Shown: piece by piece, positions 11,464 through 14,202 of the stretch
How the letters are laid out: each line of letters starts with the position of its first letter
Position numbering within the stretch: position 1 is the stretch's first letter
Source of the DNA: Janthinobacterium sp. 17J80-10
GTDB taxonomy: Bacteria > Pseudomonadota > Gammaproteobacteria > Burkholderiales > Burkholderiaceae_D
Direction: 5' to 3'
Length of the DNA: 64,000 nucleotides
NCBI RefSeq assembly: GCF_004114795.1
Contig: NZ_CP035311.1
Span: forward strand, 2,046,001-2,110,000
Notes under the pieces: generated by a model
Database searches by the model: none
Seen by the model: the letters and a program-made list of their open reading frames with translations, nothing else
Told to the model about the DNA's origin: nothing
Made by a program: the position numbers and the translations under genes

Positions 11464-12138
11464 TTATCGGGTCACCGGCTGAGGCTGGCCCTGGGGGGCA
11501 GGTTCGGCGACATAAATTTCCACGCGGCGGTTTTGGGCGCGGCCTGCAACCGTAGCGTTATCGGCGACTGGTTCGTGCGAGCCGCGTCCTTCCACCGTGA
11601 ACCGTGATGCCGACACGCCGCGCGCTGTCAGGTATTCGCGACTTTGCACGGCCCGGTTACGCGACAGCGGGTCGTTGATGGCGTCGCTCCCGGTGCTGTC
11701 GGTGTGACCGATGATGGTGACATTGGTGACGGGATTTTCTTTCAGGCCGGTCGCGAAACGATCGAGAATCGGGCGAAAATTCGGCTTGATGTCGGCGCGG
11801 TTGGTGTCGAACGAGATATCGCTGGGAATATCCAGTTTCAGCCGGTTATCGGCAGTCTGGCTGACTTCCACGCCGGTGCCCCGCGTGGCTTCCTCCATCT
11901 GTTTTTTCTGCATTTCCATGCGCGATGACCAGATGTTGCCCGCCAGGGCGCCTGCTGCGGCGCCCACAACAGCACCCGTCGCGGCATTCTTGCTATTGCC
12001 TGTCATGGCGCCAATGACGGCGCCACCCAAGGCACCCAGGCCCGCGCCTTGCGCCGTGCCGCGCTGGGTCGGCGACATGTCGGCACAACCGGTAATTGCA
12101 ATGGAAACGGCGAGGGCGGAGAGCGTCAGTTTTTTCAT
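11464..12138 (-). CDS. OmpA-family lipoprotein with glycine-zipper
   Basis: A 224-residue outer-membrane lipoprotein. The signal peptide ends in a lipobox ITGC (Cys18). Residues about 25-75 are a glycine-zipper segment (GAGLGALGGAVIGAMTG... GAVVGAAAGALAGN). The C-terminal OmpA domain has the peptidoglycan-binding signature (NVTIIGHTDSTGSDAINDPLSRNRA and GRAQNRRVEIYV). It is like YiaD of E. coli and should anchor the outer membrane to the cell wall. The ATG at 12138 has AAAGGA 8-10 bases upstream; a longer reading frame to 12246 lacks this. It converges on the ROK gene with only 6 bases between stops. Confidence 0.9.
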   Translation of the reverse strand: MKKLTLSALAVSIAITGCADMSPTQRGTAQGAGLGALGGAVIGAMTGNSKNAATGAVVGAAAGALAGNIWSSRMEMQKKQMEEATRGTGVEVSQTADNRLKLDIPSDISFDTNRADIKPNFRPILDRFATGLKENPVTNVTIIGHTDSTGSDAINDPLSRNRAVQSREYLTARGVSASRFTVEGRGSHEPVADNATVAGRAQNRRVEIYVAEPAPQGQPQPVTR

Positions 12139-12501
12139 GGATATGGTCCTTTGATTTGAGGGGGCAGGTTGGCAGAGTGGCGTCGCACACAAGAGCGATC
12201 CTGGTGCGGGATCTAGTCCAGTGCGCAATCCCAGTGCGAAAAACATGGTTAATAGACAGCAAAACTCACTAATAAGTTTCCAAATGGCTCATGCTGCGTT
12301 CCCTGAAGTATTGCTTTTCAGATCTAAACTGATGATTCTCAAGCATATTTTAATGCCGATAAGGCAATGACGACTTGCGCAAGAAATATGCAAATGAATA
12401 TTGACATGGGGAAATATATTTTCTAGTATGTTGACACAGGGAAATAAAACCCCGTGTGGTTGCTCCGATTAACCCGCCCTTTCCTGAAGGAGAAAAAGCC
12501 C
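12139..12501. other. 363-base AT-rich divergent intergenic region
   Basis: This stretch separates the OmpA-type lipoprotein gene from the ImmA-like gene. It is clearly richer in A and T than the genes beside it between about 12240 and 12450. It contains the ImmA-like promoter with direct repeats (12401-12446) and must also hold the minus-strand promoter of the lipoprotein. No further reading frame with a ribosome site was seen. Confidence 0.6.
12401..12446 (+). promoter_or_regulatory. Sigma-70 promoter overlapped by 30-bp-spaced direct repeats
   Basis: TTGACA (12401-12406), 17 bases, then TAGTAT (12424-12429) is a near-consensus sigma-70 promoter. The 16-base word TTGACATGGGGAAATA starting at the -35 box is repeated as TTGACACAGGGAAATA from 12431, matching at 14 of 16 positions, exactly 30 bp (about three helix turns) downstream. 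The second copy covers the start site and early leader. The arrangement suggests a regulator binding two same-face sites. Confidence 0.65.
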
Positions 12502-13023
12502 ATGAACCAAGCTTCGATCCACCTGGATGCAAAAAAAGCTGCCTATCAGCTATTGGATTCGGTTTGGCGCGGGCGTGGTTTCCCGGTCGATCCGAAAGCC
12601 ATCGCTGCGGAACTCGGCGTTACCGTACTGGAAGCCGAGCTGCCGGAAAATATCCTGGGCGGCTTGATCAAGGATGCCAACAAGGATGCGGTCGTGATGC
12701 TGAACCAGGGCGACAGCGTTGAGCACAACCGCTTCAACTGCGCGCAAAAGCTCGGTTACTTCACCGAGCAGAAAATCCGGCACGCAGAATGCTACAAATA
12801 TGTCGAATTTCGGGTGCGTCAGGGTATTGATAATGGTGCCCCGGAGCTTTTTGCCGATTCTTTCGCCGCATCCCTGCTGATGCCGGACCTCGCAGTACGC
12901 CAGCTGGCCAGGAAAGGCATGGCCCTCAAAGGCATGGCGCAGCACTTTGGCGTGACCGCCGATGCGCTTGAATACCGTCTTAAACAACTTGGCATCGATC
13001 TGGAGCAGATCGTCGCCGCCTGA
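12502..13023 (+). CDS. ImmA/IrrE-like protein lacking the HExxH protease motif
   Basis: A 173-residue protein aligned by eye to the ImmA/IrrE (DUF955) fold: PVDPKAIAAELGV at the start, then the helix that normally holds RFTxAHELGHY, then ExxADxFAAxLLMP, and a C-terminal HFGVTADALEYRLKQLG helix-turn-helix-like end. In the active-site helix the text is NRFNCAQKLGYF, so His, Glu and His are replaced by Gln82, Lys83 and Tyr86. The downstream Glu (PELFADSFAA) is kept. It should therefore be unable to bind zinc in the usual way and is probably a regulatory or binding protein. The ATG at 12502 has AAGGAG 10 bases upstream; an earlier in-frame start at 12454 lies at the predicted promoter start site. 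It has its own promoter and terminator, and no XRE-type partner gene is adjacent. Confidence 0.75.
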   Translation: MNQASIHLDAKKAAYQLLDSVWRGRGFPVDPKAIAAELGVTVLEAELPENILGGLIKDANKDAVVMLNQGDSVEHNRFNCAQKLGYFTEQKIRHAECYKYVEFRVRQGIDNGAPELFADSFAASLLMPDLAVRQLARKGMALKGMAQHFGVTADALEYRLKQLGIDLEQIVAA

Positions 13024-13067
13024 TTTTGTATGTAGTTTTGTCTCCTGGGGAGTAAAGTGGTAACTTG

Positions 13068-13102
13068 ATGGACCGGCGCTACAGGCTCCGGTCCATTTTT
13101 TT
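13068..13102 (+). terminator. Terminator of the ImmA-like gene
   Basis: A 9-bp stem ATGGACCGG/CCGGTCCAT with an 11-base loop, followed by seven T. It lies 45 bases past the stop, just before the convergent AI-2E family gene ends. Confidence 0.85.
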
Positions 13103-13105
13103 ATC

Positions 13106-14119
13106 CTAGATCAGGCCCCGGGCAACCAATTCCTGCTTGAGATAGGCATAAAACACGGGGCCGGCGACAACACCCGGCAAGCCGAACATCGCTTCCATGA
13201 CCAGCATGGCGATCAGCAATTCCCAGGGGCGCGCCTTGATATGCTGGCCGATGATTTTCGCATTCAGAAAGTATTCCAGTTTGTGGATGACGACCATGAA
13301 CAGCAGCGATCCCATGGCGATCTGCAGCGAATGCGACAAGCCGGCGATCACCAGCACTGTGTTCGATACCAGATTTCCCACGACCGGCAAAAGACCCGCG
13401 AAAAAGGTGATGGCGACAATGCTTTTCGCCAAAGGCAAGTGCACGCCGAGGAGGGGCAGCACGACGAAGATATAGCCAGCCGTCAGCAATGCATTGATCG
13501 CGGCGATGCGTACCTGGGCAAACACGATTTGCCTGAAGGCCTCGCTCAGATGCAGGGCACGTTGACGCAGGGCGCGCGCCAGCGGGCGCGTGGCGTGCGC
13601 TTCCGTGCTGTCTTGCAAGGCGATCATGGCGCCGATGATCATCCCCAGGAGGACGTGGGCAACGGTACGGCCGGCCTCCTGTCCCGCAAGACGGGCTTCG
13701 GTGGCGTGCTGGCGCAACCATGCAGTCAGCATTTCGCGCAGCGCATGAGTGTCCCCTGGCAAGTATCCTGCCAGCCAGCGAGGGATCTGGCCGCGCGAGG
13801 CTTCCAGGATGTCTGCCAGTTTTTGCAGCAAGGTTTCAACGCTGCCGGCATCGCTGCTGAAAAATGCCACGCTGCCCCAGATCGCCAGGCTGAGCAAGCC
13901 GACGGTCAAGACCGAAAGGACAGCCACGGCGAGCAGGCGGGCACGCGCACTGCTGAATTTTCTGGCCAATATCGGCGCCAGCAAATGCACCAGTGCAAAC
14001 ACCAGCAAGCCGGAAAAGAGCGACGCCAACAAACCAAAGCGCATGACGCCCCACAGGCCCAGCGCGGCCAGCAGCCACGATGCCATGGTTATCGCCGTTG
14101 ATTGATCATTGTGCCGCAT
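13106..14119 (-). CDS. AI-2E family transporter (YdiK/PerM-like membrane protein)
   Basis: A 337-residue polytopic inner-membrane protein of the AI-2E transporter family. Hydrophobic segments lie near residues 12-50, 60-85, 155-175 and in a cluster from about 210 to 320. The family hallmark is the C-terminal group of helices with the LPVVGN-type turn (LLPVVGNLVSNTVLVIAG) and the PGVVAGPVFYAYL end. Members have been linked to autoinducer-2 or ion export, but the substrate here is unknown. An ATG at 14119 is preferred over a TTG at 14131, though neither has a strong ribosome site. An FNR-type box lies 84-97 bases upstream. Confidence 0.85.
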   Translation of the reverse strand: MRHNDQSTAITMASWLLAALGLWGVMRFGLLASLFSGLLVFALVHLLAPILARKFSSARARLLAVAVLSVLTVGLLSLAIWGSVAFFSSDAGSVETLLQKLADILEASRGQIPRWLAGYLPGDTHALREMLTAWLRQHATEARLAGQEAGRTVAHVLLGMIIGAMIALQDSTEAHATRPLARALRQRALHLSEAFRQIVFAQVRIAAINALLTAGYIFVVLPLLGVHLPLAKSIVAITFFAGLLPVVGNLVSNTVLVIAGLSHSLQIAMGSLLFMVVIHKLEYFLNAKIIGQHIKARPWELLIAMLVMEAMFGLPGVVAGPVFYAYLKQELVARGLI

Positions 14120-14202
14120 GGATATTCTCAACTGGATGTGTCGCCGAATCGGCTTTGACTGGTTGCTCGTTTGAATGAAAAAATGCGGTTTCTATAGCGG
14201 TT

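Follow-up and report, generated by a model that had tools for sequence, protein, structure and literature searches.

Among described proteins, the closest in sequence to the one studied here are the phage and prophage M78 peptidases of the E. coli WP_000224749 type (PHROG_87), which are equal to it in size, align with it over nearly the full length and have a similar HTH-like C-terminus. The peptidase CapP of the CapH/CapP system (Thauera, PDB 7t5t) has HExxH and 278 residues, and its cognate repressor is CapH. In Deinococcus, IrrE/PprI (3dte, 8sln) combines an HExxH-bearing M78 fold and HTH with a GAF-like domain and cleaves DdrO (PMC8072749, PMC10904395); the HTH of PprI is partly buried and only ssDNA was bound (PMC10904395). 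A non-catalytic M78 fold is already precedented by MtPrpR, where an M78-like domain that does not have the conserved HExxH residues is used in transcription control (PMC6765138). MtPrpR also has an N-terminal HTH, a GAF-like domain and a 4Fe4S site, and its CoA cavity corresponds to a deep cavity in IrrE (PMC6765138). Among the open-licence papers searched, none describes a standalone M78 protein that is inactive, nor a standalone, phage-derived case that is non-catalytic across a genus.

Here we describe what is very probably an M78 pseudo-peptidase in Janthinobacterium sp. 17J80-10. Its gene occupies positions 12502-13023 (forward strand) of the window, the whole stretch of 64,000 nucleotides that was analysed, and runs from an ATG at 12502 to a stop codon ending at 13023, encoding 173 residues. 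The M78 domain is the only one above cut-off: the protein passes the curated threshold of PF06114 (Peptidase_M78; E 2.8e-10, 40.5 bits against a cut-off of 22) and thus belongs to the M78 sequence family, as do all six proteins of the genus. The best PADLOC profile is CapP (1.7e-15), and a profile search of the PDB did give matches where phmmer with the single window sequence gave zero. Unlike CapP, the protein has neither HExxH nor an adjacent repressor; unlike IrrE, it has neither HExxH nor a GAF-like domain; and unlike MtPrpR it is a standalone M78 domain of the phage-type branch. With no N-terminal XRE HTH and no GAF-like or DUF2083 domain, it also falls outside the ScfR type (PrpR, RamB). 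The host genome is one contig of 4.02 Mb in which the gene is single-copy, no close second copy being found elsewhere. At a site beyond the window, the genome also carries a CapP-like M78 gene with the motif intact (AHELGHY; L081:732-2908, around 3051000 of G000:C1). An XRE-type gene immediately precedes this gene and a resolvase gene follows it, and its product is distant in sequence from the window protein.

The former active-site segment reads RFNCAQKLGYF (residues 77-87, positions 12730-12762, forward strand), where relatives have RFTCAHELGHY. The substitutions H82Q, E83K and H86Y place QKLGY at the HExxH position, bearing out the loss of the motif that the original prediction had noted. 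Every orthologue reads QK[LI]G[YH] here, and none has the HExxH of an M78 enzyme. The expectation that orthologues would share the Gln-Lys-Tyr changes holds for Q82 and K83, invariant in all six genus proteins, and for the Tyr in four species; it fails for the Tyr in L005 and L006, which retain the second His (QKIGHY). Similarly, the later Glu that had been said to remain is Glu115 (codon 12844-12846, forward strand; ELFADSFAASLLMP), the third zinc ligand position, which is indeed kept in the window protein and three orthologues, but not genus-wide, being Gln in L005 and Ala in L006. Since Gln-Lys is common to all six proteins while the other positions are split by branch, the first His and the catalytic Glu were lost before the known species diverged. 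The rest of the metal site has been eroded differently in two branches, which is the outcome expected if no metal is bound. A K83-E115 salt bridge standing in for the zinc was also considered, and was rejected because K83 persists where E115 is gone.

HExxH is present in all 85 distinct M78 matches from outside the genus, which were drawn from phages, prophages and plasmids as well as from other members of the family, the order and the class at large. A search of viral contigs with a genus profile found no QK form, and none was seen, at the thresholds used, among matches fetched from 393 family, 399 order and 369 class genomes. Other changes beyond the motif are fixed in the genus as well (S52L, C97 and others). 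Invariant columns show only a slight excess in the former active-site segment over the remainder of the protein (hypergeometric p 0.056), which counts against the reading preferred below.

Each of the six genus genomes has one copy of the gene, and the other five proteins are 52-82% identical to that of the window. The gene order is shared throughout: a ROK kinase gene, a divergent OmpA family/glycine-zipper protein gene (11464-12246, reverse strand), the pseudo-peptidase gene, and a convergent AI-2E family transporter gene (13106-14131, reverse strand). AI-2E genes of other genera sit in different gene contexts. No XRE repressor gene adjoins the pseudo-peptidase gene in any genus member, the OmpA-type and AI-2E-type neighbours being the same genus-wide, so the arrangement is not that of an ImmA/ImmR pair. 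Purifying selection is indicated by low dN/dS: pairwise NG86 values are 0.10-0.39 and mostly 0.10-0.24, and YN00 gave 0.08-0.25 among pairs that converged. For the majority of pairs dS is close to 1 or over it, and the ratios of saturated pairs are unreliable. The reading frame, said to be intact, is unbroken in all orthologues. Because every sequenced relative in the genus shows the same loss at the same place under strong selection, the protein looks like a one-time protease that has been retained for a job other than cutting. The earlier proposal of a kept non-proteolytic function is well supported by the genus-wide Gln-Lys, the low dN/dS and the predicted M78 fold.

Such a history hardly fits a decaying gene heading for loss, an explanation we consider barely credible. 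The lost catalytic residues, and a GC content of 56% that is slightly below that of the neighbours (60% for the whole window), are what it has in its favour, but it is opposed by the unbroken frame, by the conservation of promoter and terminator, by the low dN/dS and by the gene's occurrence in six of six genus genomes. Decay was rejected on orthologue conservation and dN/dS; no genus orthologue has an intact HExxH, so the window copy is not a lone decaying one.

The nearest relatives of the window protein are phage and prophage M78 peptidases of 38-44% identity. In our tree the six genus proteins form a single clade (support 100/100) within this phage-type group, the deeper forks of which have weak support. 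In most of the nearest relatives the peptidase gene is followed directly by a gene for a small protein related to PHROG_5346, with hydrophobic stretches near the C-terminus. The window gene differs from the WP_000224749-type peptidases in having neither their HELGH nor this downstream membrane partner: searched at E 1, neither the locus nor any of the six genomes of the genus gave a PHROG_5346-like match, while the positive control scored 1e-45, and the downstream gene is convergent. The tree and the neighbours suggest an origin in a phage cassette, which the chromosome may have acquired and which would have lost both its partner and its catalytic site. The cassette of an M78 peptidase and a PHROG_5346-related small membrane protein is itself conserved from E. 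coli prophages to Gordonia phages (L055:5093-6196, L056, L059-L067, L069, L074, L037:3983-4848 and L039:2917-3911). In a P2 record (L040:2992-4168) and an Enterobacter plasmid (L041:1995-3138), a more distant M78 gene is followed by a different kind of membrane-protein gene, which is alike in both.

The AlphaFold2 model of the window protein, built from an alignment of this protein, one orthologue and viral relatives, has an M78 fold (pLDDT 91.9, pTM 0.88). Its closest solved structure is CapP 7t5t (VIA Z 17.9, 153 residues, 2.9 A), followed by PprI/IrrE (Z 13-14; IrrE 13.6) and by the mycobacterial regulator entries 6cyy and 6d2s, which we take to be MtPrpR (Z 12). The possibility that the protein has some other fold, which would have counted against the original prediction, thus finds no favour in the model. 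The C-terminal region (about residues 127-172; 12883-13017, forward strand) aligns with many HTH domains at Z 4-5.5, although HTH-only values of 4-5 lie within the range of chance arrangements. The same HTH-like C-terminus is conserved in the HExxH-bearing phage relatives, so that its retention need not point to DNA binding.

The gene forms a transcription unit by itself, and the promoter, ribosome site and terminator that had been assigned to it were all recovered. A sigma-70-type promoter, TTGACA-17-TAGTAT, lies at 12401-12429 (forward strand) in a segment conserved in orthologues, although a single promoter-type site is about what shuffled sequence yields (mean 0.8). The ribosome-binding site AAGGAGA is at 12487-12493 (forward strand), its GGAG ending 9 nt ahead of the ATG. 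An intrinsic terminator at 13067-13102 (forward strand) consists of a hairpin (13067-13097, -21 kcal/mol, z -5.4) and a T run; a simple scan missed the hairpin, which was seen on folding. Between gene and terminator, at 13035-13050, is an element, GTTTTGTCTCCTGGGG, that is conserved in orthologues, with TCTCCT invariant in all six.

Two copies of TTGACnnnnGGAAATA stand 30 bp apart and overlap the promoter. The upstream copy, TTGACATGGGGAAATA, is at 12401-12416 (forward strand), with the near-palindrome GGAAATATATTTTC in the spacer, and the downstream copy, TTGACACAGGGAAATA, at 12431-12446 (forward strand), is near the expected transcription start. Between four species, identity is 74% in the promoter spacer and 73% in the second repeat, compared with about 50% at four-fold degenerate sites. 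The full repeat motif occurs once per genome in the three genomes that fit the exact pattern, always before the pseudo-peptidase gene, and a spacing of 30-33 bp between half sites turned up only at this locus, these counts coming from genome pattern searches with small control counts. Since this putative operator is specific to the locus and precedes a single-gene unit, the gene product would be the simplest candidate for its binder.

What, then, may the protein do? Being non-proteolytic by its sequence, it would act by binding, and of the specific roles we tentatively rank autoregulatory DNA binding as the likeliest, ahead of a ligand sensor or adaptor and then a decoy. The regulator idea is possible, as the original prediction had it, yet taken by itself it is doubtful: the conserved promoter repeat might be bound by an unrelated regulator, the HTH-like region is shared with active phage relatives and aligns at Z values that can arise by chance, and in PprI the HTH is partly buried and ssDNA alone was bound (PMC10904395). 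If another regulator does occupy the repeat, the pseudo-peptidase could instead use its vacated cleft to sense a ligand and act on another protein, with no DNA binding of its own. We give this sensor or adaptor role a rather low probability; the CoA cavity of the MtPrpR M78-like domain, devoid of HExxH residues and the counterpart of the IrrE cavity (PMC6765138), and the genus-fixed changes besides the motif such as S52L and C97 are in keeping with it, but the CoA site of MtPrpR is formed jointly with a GAF-like domain, which the 173-residue protein does not have.

A dominant-negative decoy, as the original prediction also envisaged, would occupy the repressor that an active M78 peptidase, whether the cell's own or an incoming one, takes as its substrate, and would thereby shield this repressor from cleavage. 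Descent from phage-type peptidases makes this conceivable, in that substrate binding could outlast catalysis, and the own genome does have the CapP-like gene beside an XRE-type gene. We nevertheless hold it unlikely: three of the six genomes (G001, G002 and G004; one 87% complete) yielded no further PF06114 protein whose repressor might be shielded, no XRE gene adjoins the pseudo-peptidase gene, and the slow, steady evolution is unlike an arms race, which still leaves room for a shield against incoming phage peptidases. Less probable again is an enzyme that persists because the old active site has gained a different metal site or chemistry. The invariance of C80, Q82, K83 and C97 across the genus would suit it, but C80 also occurs in HExxH-bearing relatives, and with Glu115 replaced by Gln or Ala and His86 by Tyr in different branches, no member of the genus has the standard metal site.

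Our preferred reading, held at somewhat less than even confidence, is that of a vertically kept pseudo-peptidase of phage type that acts by binding and is perhaps a small autoregulatory DNA-binding protein. With this in mind, one may picture a phage-type M78 peptidase entering the chromosome of the genus ancestor and losing its zinc and catalytic site together with its membrane-protein partner, while the gene has been inherited vertically as a single-copy core gene, for what would be a non-proteolytic role. As a small regulator, the protein might rely on the vacated cleft and on the HTH-like C-terminus that it retains, and would act at the tandem TTGACnnnnGGAAATA sites to control the promoter of its own gene. 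Told in full, as the domestication of a phage-derived standalone peptidase into a single-domain, self-regulating DNA-binding protein that is a core gene of the whole genus, this scenario is more speculative still, and we would regard it as rather improbable in all its parts together.

M78 proteins are commonly annotated as metallo-endopeptidases, a name that would be wrong for the pseudo-peptidase lineage. The six species offer a clean natural conversion of a protease into a pseudoprotease, with a likely phage source group and an erosion of the metal site that can be followed branch by branch. This lineage could reveal which roles the M78 fold and its HTH play when nothing is cleaved, roles that are hard to separate in the active enzymes.
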